Origin: Candidatus Fonsibacter sp.
Lineage (GTDB): Bacteria > Pseudomonadota > Alphaproteobacteria > Pelagibacterales > Pelagibacteraceae
Reading direction: 5' to 3'
DNA length: 42,892 nucleotides
NCBI GenBank assembly: GCA_018882565.1
Contig: VERQ01000002.1
Location: 1 to 42,892 of the forward strand
The position numbers and the translations under genes are program-made. Below the pieces are notes generated by a model. It had not been told where the DNA came from. It made no database searches and saw nothing but the letters and a program-made list of their open reading frames with translations. Below, in pieces: positions 6,883 through 24,523 of this stretch; within the stretch, counting starts at the first letter, position 1, and the number at the start of each line of letters is the position of its first letter.

Positions 6883-8451
6883 TTAATCATTAATAGACTT
6901 ATTAATTAAATTAACTGTTTCTTTAATACCATAAAAACTTATAAATGATCCCATTCTCGGTCCTTGCTCATCTCCAAAAAGCACTTCATAAATCATTTTA
7001 AACCACTCTCTTAATCTCTCTTTTGAATAATGAGTTTTACCAACAGAATAAACTATGGTTTGCATTTCTTCTGGCTGCAAAGCGGGACTCATTTTAGAAA
7101 TTTGTTCAGCAAGATCTTGTAATGCTTTTTTCTCAGTTGGGTCTGGTTTTCTAAATTTTTTGTTAACTTTCACAATGTCATTAAAATAATTAATGGCATT
7201 TAAGATCAGCTTTGCAAGAATAGGGTGATTTTCTTTAATTAAATTCGGACTAAAATTCTTAATAAATTTCCAAATAACTTCTTCTTTGTCTGTATTACTA
7301 ACGCTCACTAAGTTTAGCAAAATATTAAAGGAGATAATTATTTCTTCTTTTGGTGGATTACCGTTATGAACATGCCAAACAGGATTTCCTAATTTTTCTT
7401 TTGCCTCTTGTTTGTCAAATTTTTCTAGGAAAGAAAGATATTCATCAACTGCTTTTGGGATAACTTGGAAATATAATTTTTTAGCTCTTGTTGGATTTTG
7501 ATACATATACAGAGACAAACTTTCTGGAGACGCATACTTAAGCCATTGTTCAATTGTAATTCCATTACCTTTTGATTTAGAAATCTTTTCTCCATTCTCG
7601 TCTAAAAATAACTCATAAGCAAATCCAGCTGGTGGCACTCCTCCTAAAATTTTACAAATTTTACTTGAAAGTTCTGCGCTTGGAATTAAGTCTTTCCCAT
7701 ACATTTCAAAATCAACTCCAAGAGCAAACCAGCGCATAGCCCAGTCTACTTTCCACTGCAATTTACATGCTCCTCCTGTAATTTTTGTTTCAACTTTTTT
7801 ATTTCCATTTTGATAAATAATAGTTTTATTATCTAAATTTTTCTCAATTATAGCGACCTCTAATACTTTTCCTGTCTCGGGACATATGGGTAAAAATGGA
7901 CTGTAAGTTTTTCTTCTTTCTGGACCAAGTGTTGGCAAAACAACAGCCATAATTTTATCATAATTTTTTAACACTGCAGTTAGAGCATCATCAAATTCAC
8001 CTTTAGTGTAAAGTTCAGTTGAACTTTTAAATTCATATCTAAAATTAAATTCATCCAAAAATTTTTTTAGCATATTGTTATTATGCTCTCCAAAACTCTT
8101 AAATTTTTTAAACGGATCAGGAATTGCTGTTAATGGCTTATTTAAATTATCTTCTAAAATTGATTTATTTGGAATGTTTTCTGGAACCTTTCTAAGTCCA
8201 TCCATGTCATCAGAAAATGTGAATAATTTAACCGGTATACTAGATAATCTTTGGAAAGCATTCATAACCATGGTTGTTCTGCAAACCTCTCCGAAGGTTC
8301 CAATATGAGGCAGTCCACTTGGTCCGTAACCGGTTTGAAATAAAACGTAACCTTTTTTCTCTATTATTTTTAATCTTTTTTTTAATATCTCTCTGGATTC
8401 AGTAAAGGGCCAAGCTTCTGAATCTTCAAAAAACTTTTTATCAATTAACAT
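6883..8451 (-). CDS. lysS: Lysyl-tRNA synthetase, class I
   Basis: This 522-residue enzyme charges tRNA-Lys. It is the class I form with the Rossmann-fold signatures PHIG at residues 48-51 and KISKS at 289-293, not the class II LysRS of E. coli. Class I LysRS is normal in alphaproteobacteria, archaea and spirochaetes. The insert with scattered cysteines (residues ~175-235) sits where the family has its metal/CP region. The start overlaps the end of the AmgK-like gene by 11 bases, suggesting translational coupling. Confidence 0.95.
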   Translation of the reverse strand: MLIDKKFFEDSEAWPFTESREILKKRLKIIEKKGYVLFQTGYGPSGLPHIGTFGEVCRTTMVMNAFQRLSSIPVKLFTFSDDMDGLRKVPENIPNKSILEDNLNKPLTAIPDPFKKFKSFGEHNNNMLKKFLDEFNFRYEFKSSTELYTKGEFDDALTAVLKNYDKIMAVVLPTLGPERRKTYSPFLPICPETGKVLEVAIIEKNLDNKTIIYQNGNKKVETKITGGACKLQWKVDWAMRWFALGVDFEMYGKDLIPSAELSSKICKILGGVPPAGFAYELFLDENGEKISKSKGNGITIEQWLKYASPESLSLYMYQNPTRAKKLYFQVIPKAVDEYLSFLEKFDKQEAKEKLGNPVWHVHNGNPPKEEIIISFNILLNLVSVSNTDKEEVIWKFIKNFSPNLIKENHPILAKLILNAINYFNDIVKVNKKFRKPDPTEKKALQDLAEQISKMSPALQPEEMQTIVYSVGKTHYSKERLREWFKMIYEVLFGDEQGPRMGSFISFYGIKETVNLINKSIND

Positions 8452-9445
8452 TGTTGGATCTTAATTTAATTTGCTGATTAATGATAATTCTTACCTCATT
8501 AAATATTGGATCTTCTAACCTTTTATTAAGTATTGTCCAAGTGTAAGGAATTAATTTTAAATATCTGCTTTTCTTATCTCGCTTAAAAAGCCTTGAAAAT
8601 ATTCCAATAATTTTCATAGCTCTTTGCACTGAGAGAATAGAAAATTCTTTCTTAAATTGTTGAATATTAAAATACTTTTCTTTCTTCATTAATAATAAAT
8701 AATAGTTCAATAACTTTTGCTTCAACGCAGGGCTAGTTTTAATCCTAACATCATCTATTAGGGAAAGTATATCGTAAGCTCTTGAGCCAATCAAAGCATC
8801 TTGGGAGTCAATGATACCAATTTTATTTTTTGCTCCTTCTTTATACTCCATCATATTCGAGACGTGAAAGTCTCTATGAACAAAATAGTTATTCTTAATA
8901 AAATTATTCTTTAATATTGAAAGTAATAATTTTCTTAATTTTTTAATCTTAAAATTATTTTTTATTTTTAGTATATGAGGCAAATACCAAATAAAAAATA
9001 GGTCTATTTCTTTTTTTAAAATTTTAAAATCATATTTTTTAAATCGGAATATCTTATTTTTAAAATTTATTTTTTGTAACTTAATTAAATATTTAATTAA
9101 TGATTTATAAATACTAAATTTGTCTTTAGATTTTTTGATTAACTTAAGATAAGTTTTATCGCCAAAATCCTGTAATAAAGCCAATCCATTTTTGTAATCA
9201 CAATCTAATACTTTTGGTGCACTAATGCCTCGTTTTCTTAAAAACTTATTTATGAGAACATAATTTAAAATATTAGACTTTTTTTCTTGTTCTGCAGAGG
9301 TAAGAATAAAAGATTTATTTTTTTGATAAATTCTAAAATATTTTCGAAAAGAAGCATCTCCTTTTATTTCTTTAATTTTATAATTTTCTAAATAATTTTT
9401 ATTAAGAAAAATTTTAATTATTTTTAATCTATTTTTGTTAATCAT
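8441..9445 (-). CDS. amgK: AmgK-like sugar kinase (APH-fold phosphotransferase)
   Basis: This aminoglycoside-phosphotransferase-fold protein has the catalytic HRDFHVSNMM loop and the following metal-binding IIDSQDA segment. AmgK phosphorylates the anomeric carbon of N-acetylmuramate or N-acetylglucosamine in cell-wall recycling. The assignment rests on position: in many alphaproteobacteria this kinase is next to, or fused with, TsaE. I place the start at the ATG at 9445, giving 334 residues and an 8-base overlap with the tsaE stop; a longer frame from 9478 would overlap tsaE by 41 bases. The protein is very rich in Lys, Ile and Asn. The usual partner MurU is not in the window, so another substrate is possible. 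Confidence 0.7.
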   Translation of the reverse strand: MINKNRLKIIKIFLNKNYLENYKIKEIKGDASFRKYFRIYQKNKSFILTSAEQEKKSNILNYVLINKFLRKRGISAPKVLDCDYKNGLALLQDFGDKTYLKLIKKSKDKFSIYKSLIKYLIKLQKINFKNKIFRFKKYDFKILKKEIDLFFIWYLPHILKIKNNFKIKKLRKLLLSILKNNFIKNNYFVHRDFHVSNMMEYKEGAKNKIGIIDSQDALIGSRAYDILSLIDDVRIKTSPALKQKLLNYYLLLMKKEKYFNIQQFKKEFSILSVQRAMKIIGIFSRLFKRDKKSRYLKLIPYTWTILNKRLEDPIFNEVRIIINQQIKLRSNNVN

Positions 9446-12787: not shown

Positions 12788-13489
12788 TTAACTAACATTC
12801 CAGCGATAGCCACTTCCATATCTTGTCTCAATTGCTGAAAATTTAGGATCAATTTTTTTAAATTTTTTTCTTATTCGTTTAACATGACTGTCTATAGTCC
12901 TGTCTTCAATGTCATTATCCTGCTTATAGGCAATATTCATTAGGTAGGCTCTTTCTTTAACAACTCCTGGCCTTTTTGCTAATTCATAAATAATCTTAAA
13001 TTCAGTTGTGGTTAATTTGTCAGGCAAAGTCTTTCCTCCCCACTCACATTCTAATTGCTCGGAGTCTAAGGTTAATCTTCCAACGGTTAAAACATTTTTT
13101 GGTTGTGAAGCTGTCTTAGGTTCTAGCTTTCTAAATTGAACACGAATTCTCTCTATTAGTACTTTAATTGAAAAGCCTCCAGACTTTTTAACATAATCAT
13201 CGGCCCCTAGTTTTAATCCTAACAATTCATCCACTTCATCGTCTTTGGAAGTTAACAAAATGACAGGCATAGAAGATTTTTTTCTTAATTTTTCTAGTAA
13301 TTCTTCGCCGTTCATTTTAGGCATTTTTAAATCTATAACTGCAAGATCAGGAGGATTACGCGTCATTCCGATGTATGCGCTTTCACCATCAAGGTAAGTC
13401 TGAACTTTAAATCCCTCATTCTCAAGCGCCATTGAAACGCTTGTTAAAATATTTCTATCATCATCGACCAGGGCGATTGTTTTATTCAT
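12788..13489 (-). CDS. chvI: ChvI-type OmpR-family response regulator
   Basis: This 233-residue regulator has a receiver domain (residues 1-120) with acidic pocket D9-D11, the phosphorylated aspartate D53 (AVIDLKMP) and K103-region LTSKDDE switch. A winged-helix DNA-binding domain follows (about 135-233), ending RIRKKFKKIDPKFSAIETRYGSG in family style. It precedes chvG by 5 bases, forming one operon. An AT-rich TATAAA element just upstream of the start (39-base gap to polA) could be its -10, but no good -35 is seen. Confidence 0.9.
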   Translation of the reverse strand: MNKTIALVDDDRNILTSVSMALENEGFKVQTYLDGESAYIGMTRNPPDLAVIDLKMPKMNGEELLEKLRKKSSMPVILLTSKDDEVDELLGLKLGADDYVKKSGGFSIKVLIERIRVQFRKLEPKTASQPKNVLTVGRLTLDSEQLECEWGGKTLPDKLTTTEFKIIYELAKRPGVVKERAYLMNIAYKQDNDIEDRTIDSHVKRIRKKFKKIDPKFSAIETRYGSGYRWNVS

Positions 13490-17305: not shown

Positions 17306-17870
17306 TAACAAAATTCAAAATAAAAAACTTTTTTTATTAAAAGAAATTATGTGGTTGTTACCCATAATTATTTTTGCAACTTTTATCATTACTTTATCTG
17401 CAAAAACTAAAGTTCCGTTTTATCCTGTGCCAATGACTATGCAAACGTTCGTAATCATGGCGATTGGTGTTGCTTTTGGAAAAAAAGTAGGTCTTTTAAT
17501 AATGTTAACTTATTTTTTAGAAGGCTTGTTTGGTCTTCCGGTATTTGCTGGCACTCCAGAAAAGGGGATTGGATTAAGTTATATACTTGGACCAACTTGC
17601 GGGTACTTAATGGGATATTTTATTACTGTTTATCTTTCTGGAAATATCAAAGATGAAGATAAAATTCTAACAAGAATTACAAAATTAATAATCGCAATTA
17701 TCCCAACTTATTTATTGGGAGTTATGTGGCTTGGTACGATATTTGGTTGGAATGATTCTATTATCAAGTTAGGAGTGGCCCCTTTTATATTTGCCGAATT
17801 ATTTAAAATAACTTTGCTTGCATTGTTAACTCCACATATTTTTAAGTTAAAAAAATATATAAAATCTTAA
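17298..17870 (+). CDS. bioY: BioY biotin transporter
   Basis: This 190-residue protein has about six membrane helices and the BioY signatures PVPMTMQTFVI near residue 45, GLPVFAGTPEKG near 78 and LGPTCGYLMGY near 98. BioY is the biotin-binding S component of an ECF importer and in many bacteria acts alone, without BioM and BioN. Neither is seen here. The family pattern GPTGGYL has a cysteine in place of the first Gly after Thr. It is translationally coupled to the ABC ATPase upstream. Confidence 0.9.
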   Translation: MLNNKIQNKKLFLLKEIMWLLPIIIFATFIITLSAKTKVPFYPVPMTMQTFVIMAIGVAFGKKVGLLIMLTYFLEGLFGLPVFAGTPEKGIGLSYILGPTCGYLMGYFITVYLSGNIKDEDKILTRITKLIIAIIPTYLLGVMWLGTIFGWNDSIIKLGVAPFIFAELFKITLLALLTPHIFKLKKYIKS

Positions 17871-17891
17871 ATTCTTTATATCTAATTATAA

Positions 17892-18317
17892 ATGTTCAAA
17901 AACCTTTTAGGTTCTTGGTATTTAAAAAAAAAAATATCAAATGGCTTTTTGGGCGAAGGGTTGGTGTCTTTAAAATCTAAAACATTAAATAATTTTTATT
18001 ACGAAGAAAAAAGCCTACTTCATAAAAAAGGCAATAGTGAAGCAATAGCTGGTTATCAAAAGTTTGATATCGTTGAAAATAGGAATGTTATAAAATTTTA
18101 CTTTTTGCTTGGTGATAAAAAAAATAAAATTTATCAAAAATTTAATAACAACTTCAAAGAGAATCTTGTTTCTTGGTACTTTTGTAAAAAAGATACCTAC
18201 AAAACATACTTAAGAGTAATAAATAATAATTTGTTTAAAATAGATCACTTAATAACTGGTCCAAATAAAAGAATGTTAATACAGAACACTTATTTTAGAT
18301 CTTGTAAGAATAATTAG
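17892..18317 (+). CDS. DUF6314-like protein of unknown function
   Basis: A soluble 141-residue protein with alternating strand-like segments, suggesting a small beta-barrel. The order of landmarks (LLGSWYLKKKI at the start, a central EEKSLL and IKFYF, then ITGPNKRMLIQNTYFR at the end) matches DUF6314 proteins of alphaproteobacteria, whose role is not known. It lies 21 bases after bioY and ends exactly one base before the stop of the opposing regA gene. Family assignment is by pattern only. Confidence 0.6.
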   Translation: MFKNLLGSWYLKKKISNGFLGEGLVSLKSKTLNNFYYEEKSLLHKKGNSEAIAGYQKFDIVENRNVIKFYFLLGDKKNKIYQKFNNNFKENLVSWYFCKKDTYKTYLRVINNNLFKIDHLITGPNKRMLIQNTYFRSCKNN

Positions 18318-18884
18318 TTATTTTGGAGATCTTTTCGAAAGTATTCTTTGAAGGGTTCTTCTGTGCATTTTAAGTCTTCTGGCCGTCTCAGAAACATTTC
18401 GGTCGCATAATTCAAATACTCTCTGAATATGCTCCCATTTTACCCTATCAGCCGACATTGGATTCTCTGGAGGAACTGCCTTCTTATCTTTATCTGCCAA
18501 TAAAGCGGCCTCTAAATCCTCGGCGTCTGCTGGCTTAGCAAGGTAGTCTATGGCTCCCGATTTAACCGCCGCAACAGCCGTTGGAATGTTTCCATAGCCA
18601 GTTAAAACTATAATTCTGCTGTCGGCTTTAACCTTGTGGATCTCTTTAACAACATCCAGACCACTCCCATCATTCAATCTGAGGTCTATAATGGCAAAAC
18701 TTGGAGCCGCAGATTTAACTTTTTGGTTAGCCTCTGCGACGCTAGAGGCCGAAGTAACTAAAAAACCTTTATTTTCCATGGCTTTTGAAAGCCTGTTTCG
18801 AAATGGGTCGTCATCGTCCACTATGAGCAAAGATTTGTTCTCGAACTGTCCTAGATTCAATTTTGAGGTTAAAATTTTATTCAT
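18318..18884 (-). CDS. regA: RegA/PrrA/ActR redox response regulator
   Basis: This 188-residue regulator is nearly the full length of RegA. The receiver domain (residues ~17-130) has the acidic cluster D23-D26 and phospho-acceptor D67 in IIDLRLNDGSG. A short proline linker (PPENP, near 137) leads to a Fis-type helix-turn-helix (DRNVSETARRLKMHRRTLQR). RegA with kinase RegB controls respiration, carbon and energy genes in response to redox state. Its kinase gene is about 4.3 kb away beyond the polyamine operon. By hand count 211 of 480 bases (18361-18840) are G or C, 44%, against 18-35% in three neighbouring 60-base lines. Confidence 0.93.
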   Translation of the reverse strand: MNKILTSKLNLGQFENKSLLIVDDDDPFRNRLSKAMENKGFLVTSASSVAEANQKVKSAAPSFAIIDLRLNDGSGLDVVKEIHKVKADSRIIVLTGYGNIPTAVAAVKSGAIDYLAKPADAEDLEAALLADKDKKAVPPENPMSADRVKWEHIQRVFELCDRNVSETARRLKMHRRTLQRILSKRSPK

Positions 18885-18893
18885 TGAGACCCA

Positions 18894-18922
18894 AGTATAG
18901 TCCTTCTGTAAGCCGATCTCAA
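18894..18922 (-). promoter_or_regulatory. Predicted sigma-70 promoter of regA
   Basis: On the minus strand TTGAGA (18917-18922) and TATACT (18894-18899) are separated by 17 bases. Only 9 bases separate the -10 from the regA ATG, so transcription should start about 3 bases before the ATG. There is no Shine-Dalgarno sequence, so the mRNA is predicted to be nearly leaderless. Confidence 0.6.
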
Positions 18923-18929
18923 GCTAAGG

Positions 18930-18940
18930 TCACAGTGTGA
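18930..18940. promoter_or_regulatory. Palindrome in regA-polyamine intergenic region, possible operator
   Basis: TCACAGTGTGA is a perfect 11-base inverted repeat placed 8 bases upstream of the regA -35, within the 169-base divergent gap. It could bind a dimeric regulator of regA, the polyamine operon or both. Repeats of this size also occur by chance in tens of places in a window this long, so only its location makes it notable. The rest of the gap toward the polyamine operon is AT-rich, with TTTACA at 18970-18975 but no good -10 partner. Confidence 0.25.
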
Positions 18941-19053
18941 AAAAATTTTTTCTTACCTAAAATAAATACTTTACAGAAATTAAAAATAGCATTAATTCCC
19001 GACTCAATTGGTTAATTAATAATAATTTTTTTAACAAAAGGACATAACAAGAA

Positions 19054-20244
19054 TTGAAAAAATTTAATTCTGTTTCTGACTTAGTCAGAGATCTTCAGCC
19101 AGTAAATCCTGTATATTGCATTCGACCAGAAAGTATAAAACTGGCTTGTAATTTTTTTGTAAATAATTTTCCGGGGAAACCCCTATACGCTGTAAAAACA
19201 AATCCTCACAAAAGTGTTATCAAACACATCTATCAAAATGGAATCACAAATTTTGATGTAGCCTCTCTAGAAGAAATCAAATTAGTTAATTCGATTGCAA
19301 AAGATGCAAAACTTTATTTCATGCACACAGTAAAAAATAGAAAGAGTATCGAAGAAGCATATTTTAATTATGGGGTGAGAGATTTTTCTTTTGATACAAA
19401 AGATGAATTAATTAAAATTTTTGAAGCAACTAAGGATGCAAAAGATTTAACTTTATATTTAAGAATATTTGTTTCTAATGAACATTCTGAAATTGATCTT
19501 TCAAAAAAATTCGGAGCTTCTACTACCGAAGCTATTGGATTGATAAAATTAGTAAGACCGCTTGTTAAAAAACTTGGAGTAAGTTTCCACGTTGGTTCAC
19601 AGTGTATGCATCCTGTGTCTTACTCAAAAGGAATTAAAGAAATTGGAAATATAATTACAAAATCAGGAATTACTCCTGACATTATAAATGTAGGCGGAGG
19701 ATTTCCGTCTAAGTATCCAGATCTATATCCTCAGCCATTAGAAAATTACATGGAAGAAATTAAAAAAGCAGTAAACAAATTAAATTTACCTAAACAACCA
19801 GAATTAATTTGCGAACCAGGTAGAGCTATTGTTGCAGAAAGTGGTTCTACTATTGTTAAAGTGGAACTTAGAAAAAAACAAAGTCTTTATATTAATGATG
19901 GAACTTACGGATCTTTATTTGATGCTGGGTTTCCAAATTTTATTTTTCCAACAAAAGTTATCGATACTGGAAAAGATTTAAGCAGACGTTTAACTCCTTT
20001 TAATTTCTACGGCCCAACGTGCGATAGTATGGATTTTATGAAAGGTCCTTACATGTTGCCAAATAATTTAAAAGAAGGCGATTATATAGAGATTGGACAA
20101 TTAGGAAGTTACGGTTTAACTTTCAGAACTAAATTTAACGGCTTTTACTCAGATGACATTTTCGAAATCGAAGATAAACCAATAATGTCTGTTTATCAAA
20201 ATGAACAAGATGAGGAATACAAAAGCAATTATCTTGTTGCTTAA
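19054..20244 (+). CDS. Fold-III PLP amino acid decarboxylase (ornithine decarboxylase type)
   Basis: The 396-residue protein belongs to the alanine-racemase-fold decarboxylases (ODC, ODC/LDC, DAPDC). PLP lysine is K48 (YAVKTNP), the ring-stacking histidine H179 (HVGSQ), the phosphate loop is GGGFP, then EPGR, and the second active-site segment GPTCD has C323 as in eukaryotic-type ODC. Ornithine to putrescine is the likely reaction; lysine or arginine cannot be excluded. The start is a TTG at 19054: a stop codon lies three codons upstream and no earlier start exists. AGGA at ~19039 is a distant ribosome site. Its stop overlaps the next start (TAATG). Confidence 0.85.
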   Translation: MKKFNSVSDLVRDLQPVNPVYCIRPESIKLACNFFVNNFPGKPLYAVKTNPHKSVIKHIYQNGITNFDVASLEEIKLVNSIAKDAKLYFMHTVKNRKSIEEAYFNYGVRDFSFDTKDELIKIFEATKDAKDLTLYLRIFVSNEHSEIDLSKKFGASTTEAIGLIKLVRPLVKKLGVSFHVGSQCMHPVSYSKGIKEIGNIITKSGITPDIINVGGGFPSKYPDLYPQPLENYMEEIKKAVNKLNLPKQPELICEPGRAIVAESGSTIVKVELRKKQSLYINDGTYGSLFDAGFPNFIFPTKVIDTGKDLSRRLTPFNFYGPTCDSMDFMKGPYMLPNNLKEGDYIEIGQLGSYGLTFRTKFNGFYSDDIFEIEDKPIMSVYQNEQDEEYKSNYLVA

Positions 20245-21290
20245 TGAACAAATCCTCAAATTCAACTATAGGTCACAACAAATCTAGCTTTTTAGATAAA
20301 GCAATCGAGCACATAGATATTACCTCTTTTGATGCAAGGCCCATCATAGATGCTATGGCTAAGATGTCTTTTACATCTAGAGAAACAGCCAATGCAGCTC
20401 AAATCTATAACGAAATGTTAAACGATAAAAACTGCACTGTTTTCTTAACTTTAGCAGGATCAACTTCTGCTGCGGGATGTATGAAAGTTTATGCCGATCT
20501 AGTTAAAAACAACATGGTTGATGCTATAGTTTCAACAGGAGCATCTATTGTTGATATGGATTTCTTTGAAGCGCTAGGCTTTAAACATTACCAAGGATCT
20601 CAATTCCAAAACGATAATGTATTAAGAGAACATTATATCGATAGAATATATGACACCTACATTGATGAAGACCAACTACAAGCGTGCGATAAGACAGTTG
20701 GCGAAATAGCAGATCAATTAGAACCTAGACCTTATACTTCTCGTGAATTCATAAGAGAAATGGGAAAATATTTAACAAAACATTCAAAGAAGAAAGAATC
20801 TTTAATTCAACTTGCTTACGAAAACGATGTGCCAATATTCTGTCCTGCTTTTACAGATTCTAGTGCTGGATTTGGTTTAGTAATGCATCAAGAAAGAAAT
20901 CCTAAAAAACATTTAACAATTGACTCTATAAGAGATTTTAGAGAACTTACTGAAATTAAAATTAAATCAAAAACTTCAGGTTTATTAATGATCGGTGGTG
21001 GCGTTCCTAAAAACTATATTCAAGACACGGTTATATGTGCTGAGCTTTTAGGAAAAGAAGTTGATATGCATAAATACGCTATACAAATTACTGTTGCTGA
21101 CGTTAGAGATGGAGCGTGTAGTTCTTCTACATTAAAAGAAGCAAGCTCATGGGGAAAAGTAGATACAGCAAGAGAGCAAATGGTTTTCGCTGAAGCAACT
21201 AGCGTTATACCTCTTATAGCAAGCGATGCATTTCATAGAGGCTACTGGAAAAATAGACCTAAAAGGAGTTTTTCTAAATTATTCAAATAA
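20244..21290 (+). CDS. Bacterial deoxyhypusine synthase-like protein
   Basis: This 348-residue protein is clearly of the deoxyhypusine synthase (DHS) family. It keeps the catalytic lysine K256 (GGGVPKNYI, equivalent to K329 of human DHS) and the active-site histidine H215 (MHQERNP). The eukaryotic NAD/spermidine motif TAGG.EED is replaced by TGASIVDMDF, as in the bacterial branch. Bacteria lack eIF5A, so the enzyme probably moves an aminobutyl group onto a diamine, making homospermidine or a relative. It is coupled to the decarboxylase upstream by a 1-base overlap and followed 3 bases later by aguB. Polyamine function is well supported by context; the exact product is not. Confidence 0.85.
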   Translation: MNKSSNSTIGHNKSSFLDKAIEHIDITSFDARPIIDAMAKMSFTSRETANAAQIYNEMLNDKNCTVFLTLAGSTSAAGCMKVYADLVKNNMVDAIVSTGASIVDMDFFEALGFKHYQGSQFQNDNVLREHYIDRIYDTYIDEDQLQACDKTVGEIADQLEPRPYTSREFIREMGKYLTKHSKKKESLIQLAYENDVPIFCPAFTDSSAGFGLVMHQERNPKKHLTIDSIRDFRELTEIKIKSKTSGLLMIGGGVPKNYIQDTVICAELLGKEVDMHKYAIQITVADVRDGACSSSTLKEASSWGKVDTAREQMVFAEATSVIPLIASDAFHRGYWKNRPKRSFSKLFK

Positions 21291-21293
21291 ACA

Positions 21294-22175
21294 ATGTCTT
21301 CACTAACTAAAGTAGCTTTGGTGCAGATGAAGATGGACGCTGATCCAAAAAAAAATCTCTCTAAAGCCATTGAAAAAATAAAATTAGCGAAAAAGAAAGG
21401 TGCACAAATTGTTTGTTTGCCTGAACTATTTCTAACGCATTATTTTTGCCAAGAAGAAAATCACGATAACTTTGCAATAGCAGAGAAGATACCTGGAAAA
21501 ACTACAAATGCATTATGCGAGTTAGCAAAAAAAATAAGCGTAATAATAATTGTTCCACTTTTTGAAAAGAAAGTTTCAGGCCTTTATCATAACTCATGCG
21601 TTGTGATTGATGAAAAAGGAAAGATTTTTGGTCACTATAGAAAAATGCACATTCCTGATGATCCTCAATATTATGAAAAATTTTATTTCACACCAGGTGA
21701 TTTAGGTTTTAAAAGTTTCAACACTAAGCACGGTACGATTGGAACTTTAATATGCTGGGATCAATGGTTTCCAGAAGCAGCACGTTTAACGGCTCTAAAA
21801 GGTGCAGAAATCATATTTTATCCAACAGCAATAGGCTGGCATTTACGTGAAAAGAAAGAATTTGGTAAATCACAATTAAATGCATGGCTTACAATTCAAA
21901 GATCGCACGCGATAGCAAATGGGGTATTTGTAGTTTCTGTTAACAGAGTAGGTATTGAAGGAAAAAAAGATAAATCTATCGAATTTTGGGGTAATTCAAT
22001 TGTATTTGACCCTAATGGAAATATTATTGCAGAAGCTAGCAATGACAAGGAAGAGATAATTATCTGTAATATTGATCTAAGCAAAGTTGAAAAAGTAAGA
22101 CAACATTGGCCATTCTTAAGAGATAGAAGAATTGATCAATACCATGGTCTATTAAAAAATCCTTCCGATGAATGA
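21294..22175 (+). CDS. aguB: N-carbamoylputrescine amidase
   Basis: This 293-residue nitrilase-family enzyme has the catalytic triad E44 (CLPELF), K117 (RKMHIPDD) and C154 (ICWDQWFPEAAR). The segments around the cysteine and HLREKKEFG match AguB, which splits N-carbamoylputrescine into putrescine, CO2 and ammonia. It overlaps the agmatine deiminase gene by 8 bases (ATGAATGA), which supports the assignment because the two enzymes act in sequence. Confidence 0.93.
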   Translation: MSSLTKVALVQMKMDADPKKNLSKAIEKIKLAKKKGAQIVCLPELFLTHYFCQEENHDNFAIAEKIPGKTTNALCELAKKISVIIIVPLFEKKVSGLYHNSCVVIDEKGKIFGHYRKMHIPDDPQYYEKFYFTPGDLGFKSFNTKHGTIGTLICWDQWFPEAARLTALKGAEIIFYPTAIGWHLREKKEFGKSQLNAWLTIQRSHAIANGVFVVSVNRVGIEGKKDKSIEFWGNSIVFDPNGNIIAEASNDKEEIIICNIDLSKVEKVRQHWPFLRDRRIDQYHGLLKNPSDE

Positions 22176-23238
22176 AAATCTGGCATCCTTGGGTTATAGA
22201 ATGCCGGCAGAGTGGGAAAAGCAAAGCTCCACATGGTTAGCATGGCCACATAATAAAAATGACTGGCCTGATAAATTTGAAAATATTCCATCAACTTTCG
22301 CTAAAATAGCTTCAGCGTTATCTAAGGTTCAAAAAGTTGATATTTTAATTCAATCAAAAGCAGTTAAAAAAAATATTAAGAAAATCTTAATTAAAGAAAA
22401 AACAAATCTAAATAAGGTTAATTTTCATGTCATTAAGACAAATAGAGTTTGGACTAGAGATACGGGACCTATTTTTCTTGTAAATGATCTTTTGAAAAAA
22501 AAGATTATGACTAATTTTCATTTCAATGCGTGGGCAAAATATAAAGATTATAATTTTGACAATAATATAAAGCCACAAATAGCAAAAATTAAAAATATAG
22601 AATTGATAGATATAAAAGCAAAAATTAAAAATAAAGTTAAAGATATTATATTGGAAGGTGGTGCGATTGACGTAAATGGAAAAGGAACTTTAATTGCAAC
22701 AAAAGAATGCTTATTAAGTAAAATTCAAGAAAGAAATCCTGGGCTAAGTAGAGAAAAATTAGAAATAATCTTAAGCGAAAGTCTAAATATCAAAAATTTT
22801 ATATGGCTTAATAAAGGTATTGTTGGTGATGATACACACGGTCATATCGATGACATCACAAGATTTTTTGAAGATGATAAAATATTTACAGCAATGGAAT
22901 ATAAAAAAAATGATGAAAATTATTCAGCTTTAAATGAAAATTTAAAAATCTTAAAAAAATCTAGAAATCATTTAGGCAAACAAAATACAATTGTAGAAAT
23001 ACCAATGCCATCACCTTTAATTATAGACGATACAAGAGTGCCTGCTAGCTACTTAAATTTTTATATAGCTAATAAAATTGTACTATTACCAATCTTTGAA
23101 GATAAAAATGATGATAAAGCTTTTCAAATTTTAGAAAGACATTTTAAAGACAGAAAAATTATACCAATTAACTGTCGTGATCTTATTTGGGGATTTGGAG
23201 CAATTCATTGCATGACCCAACAAGAGCCAGCTATATAA
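22168..23238 (+). CDS. aguA: Agmatine deiminase
   Basis: AguA converts agmatine to N-carbamoylputrescine and ammonia. The 356-residue protein shows the family N-terminus RMPAEWEKQSSTWLAWPH, the RDTGPIF segment, the histidines H224 and H226 in DDTHGHIDD and the nucleophile C348 in AIHCMTQQEPA. It is the last gene of the polyamine operon, and its stop overlaps the end of regB by 8 bases. No arginine decarboxylase (speA) is in the window, so agmatine must come from elsewhere in the genome or from outside. Confidence 0.95.
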   Translation: MNENLASLGYRMPAEWEKQSSTWLAWPHNKNDWPDKFENIPSTFAKIASALSKVQKVDILIQSKAVKKNIKKILIKEKTNLNKVNFHVIKTNRVWTRDTGPIFLVNDLLKKKIMTNFHFNAWAKYKDYNFDNNIKPQIAKIKNIELIDIKAKIKNKVKDIILEGGAIDVNGKGTLIATKECLLSKIQERNPGLSREKLEIILSESLNIKNFIWLNKGIVGDDTHGHIDDITRFFEDDKIFTAMEYKKNDENYSALNENLKILKKSRNHLGKQNTIVEIPMPSPLIIDDTRVPASYLNFYIANKIVLLPIFEDKNDDKAFQILERHFKDRKIIPINCRDLIWGFGAIHCMTQQEPAI

Positions 23239-24523
23239 GTTTTAAATTAACTAAATCTTTTTTTTGCCAGAATATGTCAACTGCAGCACCTTTATTTTCT
23301 AAATTATAGAAATTAATAGTAGCAGATAATCTTTCTAAAAAAACTTTTGCTATAAAAATGCCAAGGCCCATTCCTTCTTTATTGTTATCGAGATCTCTTT
23401 TATTAATATAAGGCTCTCCTAAAAATCCTAATATTTGTTTTGAAAAACCTACACCATCATCTTCAATTTTTATTCTCAACTCATCTTCATTTGATAATAA
23501 AAAAATCTCAATTTTATTTGAAGAAAATTTTAAAGCATTATCAATAATATTCTTAAGACTATAAATAATCTCAATTTTTTTGGTAATTAAATAATCTTTT
23601 CTATAAGCTTCTGAATTAATAATAATTTTTTTCTTACTTAGATCTTTAAATGAATCAACAATTTCATGAACGATAATTTTAAATGACGCTTTATCAAAAA
23701 ATTTATCCTCTTTTTCCGTATAAGGATTTTTTGATATCTGCTTTAATATATCGCTGCATCTTTTAGATTGGGAAATAAGCAAATCTAAATCTTGATTAAA
23801 CTTCTTATTTACTCCTATTTCTTTTTTTAACTCTTTAGCAACTAACGATATCGTATTCAAAGGAGTTCCTAACTCATGAGCCGCTGCTGCTGCAAGGCCT
23901 CCTAAAGATTTTAATTCTTGCTCCCTTAAAAAGATCTGTTGCAAAACGTTAAAAGCATCATTTCTTTGTGCGCTTTCCATCGCTAATCTTTGTGAATAAA
24001 TAGCTAAAAATATTATCGCCGTACATAATGCTAATGCTGATCCTAAAATATAAAACTTTGGAAATAGGTAATTATTTTCAAGTCCAGGTAATTCAAAATA
24101 AAAGAATGATAATATAATAATTAATACGATTGATAAAAAACCTATAAGAACACTACTTCTTAGATTTAAAAATCCTGCAGCAATTGTAATTGGTGCAACA
24201 ATTAATATTGAAAAGGGATTGGTTAACCCACCAGTTAAAAATAACAATCCGAATAGCTGAAATAAATCATAGAGAATGCTAAAAGTGGCTTGTTTATTGG
24301 ATAATAAGTCCGTTTTTTTTGATCTCAGTTTAAGGAAAATATTAAGAAAAAAAGAAAACAAAACTAATAAATAACAATACCCAATATTAAAACTAAAATT
24401 TAAATAAAAATATACAATCGATATTGTTGTAAACTGTCCAAGAATCGCAACCCAACGAATGTTGATTAGTGTTAAAAGTTTTATCTGATTATCATTTAGC
24501 TCTGGTAGTTTTGCTAAATTCAT
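23231..24523 (-). CDS. regB: RegB/PrrB redox sensor histidine kinase
   Basis: The 430-residue kinase has about six membrane helices in its first 180 residues. It contains the RegB ubiquinone-binding heptad GGLTNPF (residues 98-104), the H-box with phospho-acceptor H216 (AAHELGTPLNT) and, shortly after, C256 in RCSDIL, at the place of the redox-active cysteine of RegB. The ATP-binding lobe includes GMGLGIFIAKVF. All redox-sensing features known for the family are therefore kept. It starts 4 bases after gyrB and so is likely cotranscribed with it; its partner regA is a separate gene about 4.3 kb away. Confidence 0.93.
   Translation of the reverse strand: MNLAKLPELNDNQIKLLTLINIRWVAILGQFTTISIVYFYLNFSFNIGYCYLLVLFSFFLNIFLKLRSKKTDLLSNKQATFSILYDLFQLFGLLFLTGGLTNPFSILIVAPITIAAGFLNLRSSVLIGFLSIVLIIILSFFYFELPGLENNYLFPKFYILGSALALCTAIIFLAIYSQRLAMESAQRNDAFNVLQQIFLREQELKSLGGLAAAAAHELGTPLNTISLVAKELKKEIGVNKKFNQDLDLLISQSKRCSDILKQISKNPYTEKEDKFFDKASFKIIVHEIVDSFKDLSKKKIIINSEAYRKDYLITKKIEIIYSLKNIIDNALKFSSNKIEIFLLSNEDELRIKIEDDGVGFSKQILGFLGEPYINKRDLDNNKEGMGLGIFIAKVFLERLSATINFYNLENKGAAVDIFWQKKDLVNLKLI

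Follow-up and report, generated by a model that had tools for sequence, protein, structure and literature searches.

The gene of the redox response regulator RegA in Candidatus Fonsibacter, an AT-rich bacterium of the SAR11 group, is of a known kind but is a genuine outlier in composition, and on the evidence it is native. It lies in the window, which is the whole stretch of 42,892 nucleotides that was analysed and represents one contig of a 981-kb assembly (101 contigs, 89% complete). The G+C excess of this gene is real, gene-bounded and genus-wide, it is found at G- and C-ending codons alike, and it is held despite ordinary turnover of synonymous sites. We favor the view that the GC-rich island consists of the native regA gene and its predicted core promoter. 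The literature searched (titles, abstract openings, and passages of PMC13198564 and PMC7318151) contained no description of a GC-rich regA in SAR11.

Hereafter, g1 is the genus of the window and f1 its family, g2 to g14 are the other genera of f1, and f2 is the other family of the order. G-numbers (G002, G003 and so on) are genomes of relatives, and L-numbers are contigs or loci (for example, L296 is G002:C52).

Identity of regA and regB

The RegA protein matched the NCBIfam equivalog model NF033791 with 309.6 bits (cut-off 250). It includes a receiver domain (Pfam Response_reg PF00072, 86.1 bits), and after it a Fis-type helix-turn-helix that was barely over its cut-off (PF02954, 22.1 bits versus 22). 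Its closest named records, 94-96% identical, come from SAR11 single cells and metagenome bins (SCGC AAA280-P20, Pelagibacterales bins). The features discussed here are listed in Table 1.

Table 1. Positions of the features in the window
Feature	Position	Strand	Remarks
Second response regulator	12788..13489	-	GC3 0.266, obs/exp 1.36, mildly raised
DUF6314 gene	17892..18317	+	Pfam PF19834; GC 0.239; convergent, its stop codon abuts that of regA
regA, ActR/PrrA/RegA family redox response regulator	18318..18884	-	188 aa; GC 0.416, GC3 0.378
Maximum-likelihood GC-rich segment	18354..18935		43.0% versus 27.1% outside, likelihood ratio 47
Predicted sigma-70-type promoter of regA	18894..18922	-	TTGAGA, 17 nt, TATACT; 10/12 consensus matches
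Palindrome TCACAGTGTGA	18930..18940		5′ edge of the island; occurs once in the whole assembly
regB, cognate sensor kinase	23231..24523	-	NF033792, 436.2 bits over cut-off 350, match 23252-24496

The window's regA shares with the ActR/PrrA/RegA regulators of Alphaproteobacteria the family model, the receiver and Fis-type helix-turn-helix domains, and a RegB encoded in the same window. However, it differs from them in three respects: its synonymous GC is twice the genomic expectation, its promoter is probably leaderless, and regB is not adjacent but 4.3 kb away. Redox-dependent phosphorylation and DNA binding are ascribed to this RegA only as the predicted function of its family. In addition, a row of polyamine genes stands beside regA (20244-23238), in which the 1,9-bis(guanidino)-5-aza-nonane synthase scored over its cut-off and the aguB-like and aguA-like genes scored below theirs.

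Extent and edges of the GC-rich segment

Segmentation by maximum likelihood over positions 17501-19600 yielded a single segment, whose edges within 2 lnL were 18315-18384 on the left and 18818-18947 on the right. The segment corresponds to regA and its promoter and is sharply bounded. The AT-rich DUF6314 gene marks its sharp 3′ edge; the mean GC of 30-base bins in the 11 g1 loci fell from 0.27-0.49 before the regA stop to 0.20-0.26 over the 120 bases that follow.

A preliminary description of this DNA had reported a GC island at regA and its promoter, and the best-fit segment agrees with it. Its counts were exact on recount, both the 44% G+C of 18361-18840 (211/480) and the 9 G/C third positions among the 19 codons of GYGNIPTAVAAVKSGAIDY, and the 52% that it gave for individual lines is the value of the top 60-base line in regA. 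Six other lines outside regA, among the 714 lines of the window, reached 48-50%. Single 60-base lines are unremarkable, and it is the 580-base GC-rich run that is special. When 480-base sliding windows were compared over a 222-kb sample of the same genome (223 ORFs, also used as the own-genome background below), apart from the contig of the window only L044 had equally GC-rich ones, and most of these lay within or close to a solute-symporter gene.

Promoter and palindrome

Three sigma-70 consensus sites with 10/12 matches were found versus 1.9 expected, so the predicted promoter is weak evidence alone. The pattern TTGWG...TATA was retained in 10 of the 11 g1 sequences as read from the alignment, with G005 as the exception. 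Since the second hexamer, TATACT, ends 9 nt before the regA ATG, we infer that the regA transcript would be leaderless or nearly so if this promoter is used.

The core promoter region and its flanks upstream of the ATG (18885-18940) have a GC content of 46%. In the 60 bases upstream of regA, mean GC was 0.40-0.46 in g1 versus 0.24-0.32 in g2 and the other f1 genera. This upstream stretch appears to be separate from the coding excess and to represent a conserved, predicted promoter. The palindrome at the 5′ edge was rejected as a conserved operator, because it is altered in most g1 relatives. Meanwhile, a TGTAAAG-centred motif lies at 18950-19000, in the divergent intergenic region of regA and ODC. 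By eye, it is also present upstream of regA in several other genera of the family, and it is possibly a shared operator.

GC3 excess within the genome

The abundance of G/C at third positions was corrected for amino acids (obs/exp GC3), and for the regA count the expectation was taken from the codon usage of the window. There were 71 G/C third positions in regA against 34.9 expected (z 7.3). With a ratio of 2.05, regA ranked first among the 223 ORFs of its own genome, about 6 SD from the rest (mean 1.01, SD 0.17), and it was also first by fourfold GC. The first and second codon positions supply part of the GC, as they do in conserved proteins, and the anomaly is in the third positions.

A value of regA within the normal spread of the genome, or comparable values in other conserved regulators, would have spoken against the preliminary description. 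Neither was found: regA is outside the spread, and the genome's other response regulators had ratios of 1.05, 0.78, 1.01 and 1.36. Together with the ordinary regB, which serves as a negative control (GC3 0.177, obs/exp 1.03), this range rejects raised GC3 as a general property of regulators.

In samples of other genomes, regA ranked 4th of 407 ORFs in G003 (g1), 3rd of 381 in G013 (g2) and 20th of 403 in G015 (g4) by obs/exp GC3. The two ORFs above it in G013 resemble the antisense of rRNA (judged by eye). Its ranks by fourfold GC were 32, 4 and 58 in the same genomes, and thus, in genomes other than its own, the signal stands out best when all degenerate sites are combined. In addition, mnmG-like and parA-like genes of G013 (named by eye; L199, 6731-8602 and 9252-10052) had raised GC3 and fourfold GC.

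Distribution across relatives

To describe the distribution, the obs/exp GC3 of regA was compared with that of the ORFs of its own locus. As the preliminary description had suggested, the GC of regA was followed into related genomes: it ranked first in all 11 g1 loci (1.45-2.01) and in all 3 g2 loci (1.56-1.75). Ratios were milder elsewhere in the family, at 1.09-1.39 in 16 loci of other f1 genera. The ratios in 10 loci of f2 were 0.94-1.55, with one high value (G058). Among 79 named genome contigs (one of 80 was dropped because it had too few other ORFs), the median was 1.18 and regA was first in 26; judged by their 94-96% identity, four of these contigs are from g1. Class-wide regA loci, which are mostly GC-rich, entered the comparison as GC of regA versus its flanks only. 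Thus there is a mild family-wide tendency with two strong cases, g1 and g2.

In the polA tree, g2 grouped with g3 and g6, and g1 grouped with g7, g9 and g12, in which regA is mild, so that g1 and g2 are not sisters. Because they stand apart and the neighbours of g1 are mild, the simplest reading is that the strong state has two separate origins.

RegA was over its cut-off in 52 of the 61 genomes, and many of the misses were in incomplete genomes. Two of the 13 g1 genomes (G002 and G012) had no RegA over the cut-off. The g1 regA loci share the same neighbouring genes. In G002 (g1, 96% complete), neither RegA nor RegB exceeded its cut-off and the pair is absent together. On L296 the sites of the two genes are empty and separated by about 4 kb, 8253-8783 with ABC and ODC genes as flanks and 12970-12978 with aguA and a homologue of 24528; bioY and DUF6314 had no match at this locus. 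This looks like a joint loss of the regA/regB pair.

Native or imported

The RegA sequences of the g1 crown had a mean identity of 75.2% to 92 other sequences of the family, versus a mean of 64.3% and a maximum of 70.2% to 28 outgroup alphaproteobacteria. In a tree without f2, the 33 RegA rows of the family formed a clade apart from 28 other alphaproteobacteria with a support of 99.7, and g1 was grouped with g7, g9 and g12 with a weak support of 72. In a 50-row tree with f2, all 22 SAR11 rows fell together (98/92). Furthermore, the GARP/FYMINK ratio of RegA is not raised in g1 (0.95 versus 1.08 in other genera). Identity, synteny and amino-acid composition favor a native RegA.

Like the compositionally deviant genes that are taken as horizontal transfers, regA has a GC3 far outside the spread of its genome. 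However, unlike such genes, it is native by similarity and clade support, syntenic and genus-wide. Among the marks of recent transfer, only atypical composition was found; its nearest relatives are not outside the host lineage, and patchiness or an odd location was not seen. A recent import of regA was rejected by the identity and the clade, and by an excess that is genus-wide and also occurs in the non-sister g2.

Recombination from a higher-GC donor had been proposed in the preliminary description. As a recent event this proposal fails, and what is left of it is an ancient one, in which the ancestor of g1, and in a separate event that of g2, received regA and its promoter from a relative of higher GC in place of its own, with incomplete amelioration since then. 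The sharply edged unit of gene plus promoter would suit such a history. In addition, the RegA alignment is short, and AU tests rejected neither the constraint of g1 with the outgroups (p = 0.36 and 0.68) nor that of g1 with g2 (p = 0.46 and 0.40). The second value of each pair comes from an alignment in which the named sequences were thinned to 3, and at 0.68 the constrained tree was better than the quick free one. However, the identities, the clade support and the unraised GARP/FYMINK of g1 all point the other way, two events are required, and no donor with a GC3 near 0.6 is among the sampled relatives, the highest regA GC3 in the family being 0.40. Taking these points together with the rate data below, we consider an ancient replacement unlikely, though it deserves to be kept in mind.

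Synonymous evolution and the cause of the excess

Fourfold divergence to full-length g1 relatives was alike in regA (0.24-0.67) and polA (0.23-0.56), so the synonymous sites of regA are not frozen. Between genera, fourfold divergence of regA was 0.60-0.85. This is near saturation, and the memory of an old GC state should therefore be faint.

A two-state likelihood fit was carried out on g1, by which a steady state and a decay are not separable. An own equilibrium GC of 0.30 for regA gave lnL -510.6. Background composition (-522.6 to -528.3) was rejected by 12-18 lnL. A decay that starts at a root GC3 of 0.58-0.64 (-511.2 to -511.7) fitted about as well as the steady state, as an ancient replacement would predict. 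The parsimony per-site rates were also the same in regA and polA (W to S 0.67/0.70, S to W 1.25/1.31) and at face value suit decay. However, parsimony is biased at skewed composition, giving equilibrium GC of 0.28-0.35 for genes at 0.14-0.22, and it was replaced by the likelihood fit; for ODC its result, from 23 usable sites, is uninformative, since G006 contributes a piece with only 36 codons of that gene.

The twofold codons of g1 regA were C-ending in 0.416 and G-ending in 0.378, versus 0.192 and 0.172 in the background. The symporter gene, which is likely highly expressed, had 0.542 and 0.260, so that its rise is mainly in C. This solute-symporter-like gene (named by eye; L044, 16399-18309) has a high GC3 of 0.329 and an ordinary fourfold GC of 0.173, a pattern that marks translational selection in favor of twofold codons ending in C. 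The C-ending codons of regA are raised as in translationally selected, highly expressed genes of AT-rich genomes, and such selection could account for them, as it would in other SAR11 genes with a raised GC3. However, in regA the excess extends to G-ending and fourfold codons, unlike in the symporter gene, and this explanation is highly improbable.

The least probable explanation of all is that an RNA fold, an antisense gene or embedded binding sites constrain the sequence. The preliminary description had suggested selection on RNA structure, but folding energies were no better than those of synonymous shuffles: when 21 genes of g1, g2, g3, g4 and g7 were folded and each was compared with 60 codon shuffles, no extra mRNA structure was revealed, and the sense-strand z values of g1 ranged from -1.65 to 1.34, centred near zero. 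There was also no Rfam match in the window. In 8 of the 11 g1 genes one antisense frame runs for 95 codons without a stop, and in a ninth for 112, which would suit an overlapping gene. However, these lengths do not pass the 112 codons that mark the 95th percentile of the shuffled genes, and with 300 codon shuffles for each of 14 genes of g1 and g2, antisense and alternative frames were generally no longer than in the shuffles. Furthermore, g1 and g2 share no GC-ending positions (within-amino-acid r = 0.04, P = 0.36). The synonymous divergence, the structure and the antisense frame are thus all without the marks of a structured or overlapping coding constraint.

Since no fold, antisense frame or shared positions were found, a diffuse gene-wide cause is left, and we infer either weak selection on the message or a gene-bounded bias. 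A rival explanation is GC-biased gene conversion, with regA lying in a local recombination hotspot. SAR11 is highly recombining, G and C rise strand-symmetrically, and there is no site-specific constraint, all of which would be consistent with conversion. However, the excess ends with the stop codon and leaves the adjoining gene unaffected, regB and the other neighbours are normal, and the amino-acid composition is unshifted. We therefore regard conversion as improbable.

Codon selection, which had also been named in the preliminary description, is by elimination the leading reading, in the form of selection on wobble composition without a preference for positions. Tentatively, and with nearly as much belief as doubt, we propose that regA is under a diffuse, sustained, gene-specific push toward GC wobble bases in g1 and independently in g2. 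Under this push, regA would evolve to a higher synonymous G+C equilibrium than the rest of the genome in each of the two genera. The push would be weak and would act on the wobble composition of the regA message, for example via the stability or elongation rate of a regulator mRNA that would be leaderless and present in few copies, and its target would not be particular sites, folds or hidden frames. The narrower claim, that sustained gene-specific selection for G/C-ending codons without site preference has acted independently in two SAR11 genera and outside classical codon optimisation, is possible but rather doubtful.

Implications

Compositional outliers are often read as imports. However, regA is a 6-SD outlier and yet native on the evidence, and a similar outlier exists in a second genus. 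If the excess is a decaying import, regA would warn how long a compositional signal can last. If the push is sustained, regA would be a clean natural case for control of synonymous composition by something other than mutation and tRNA supply in very AT-rich genomes.
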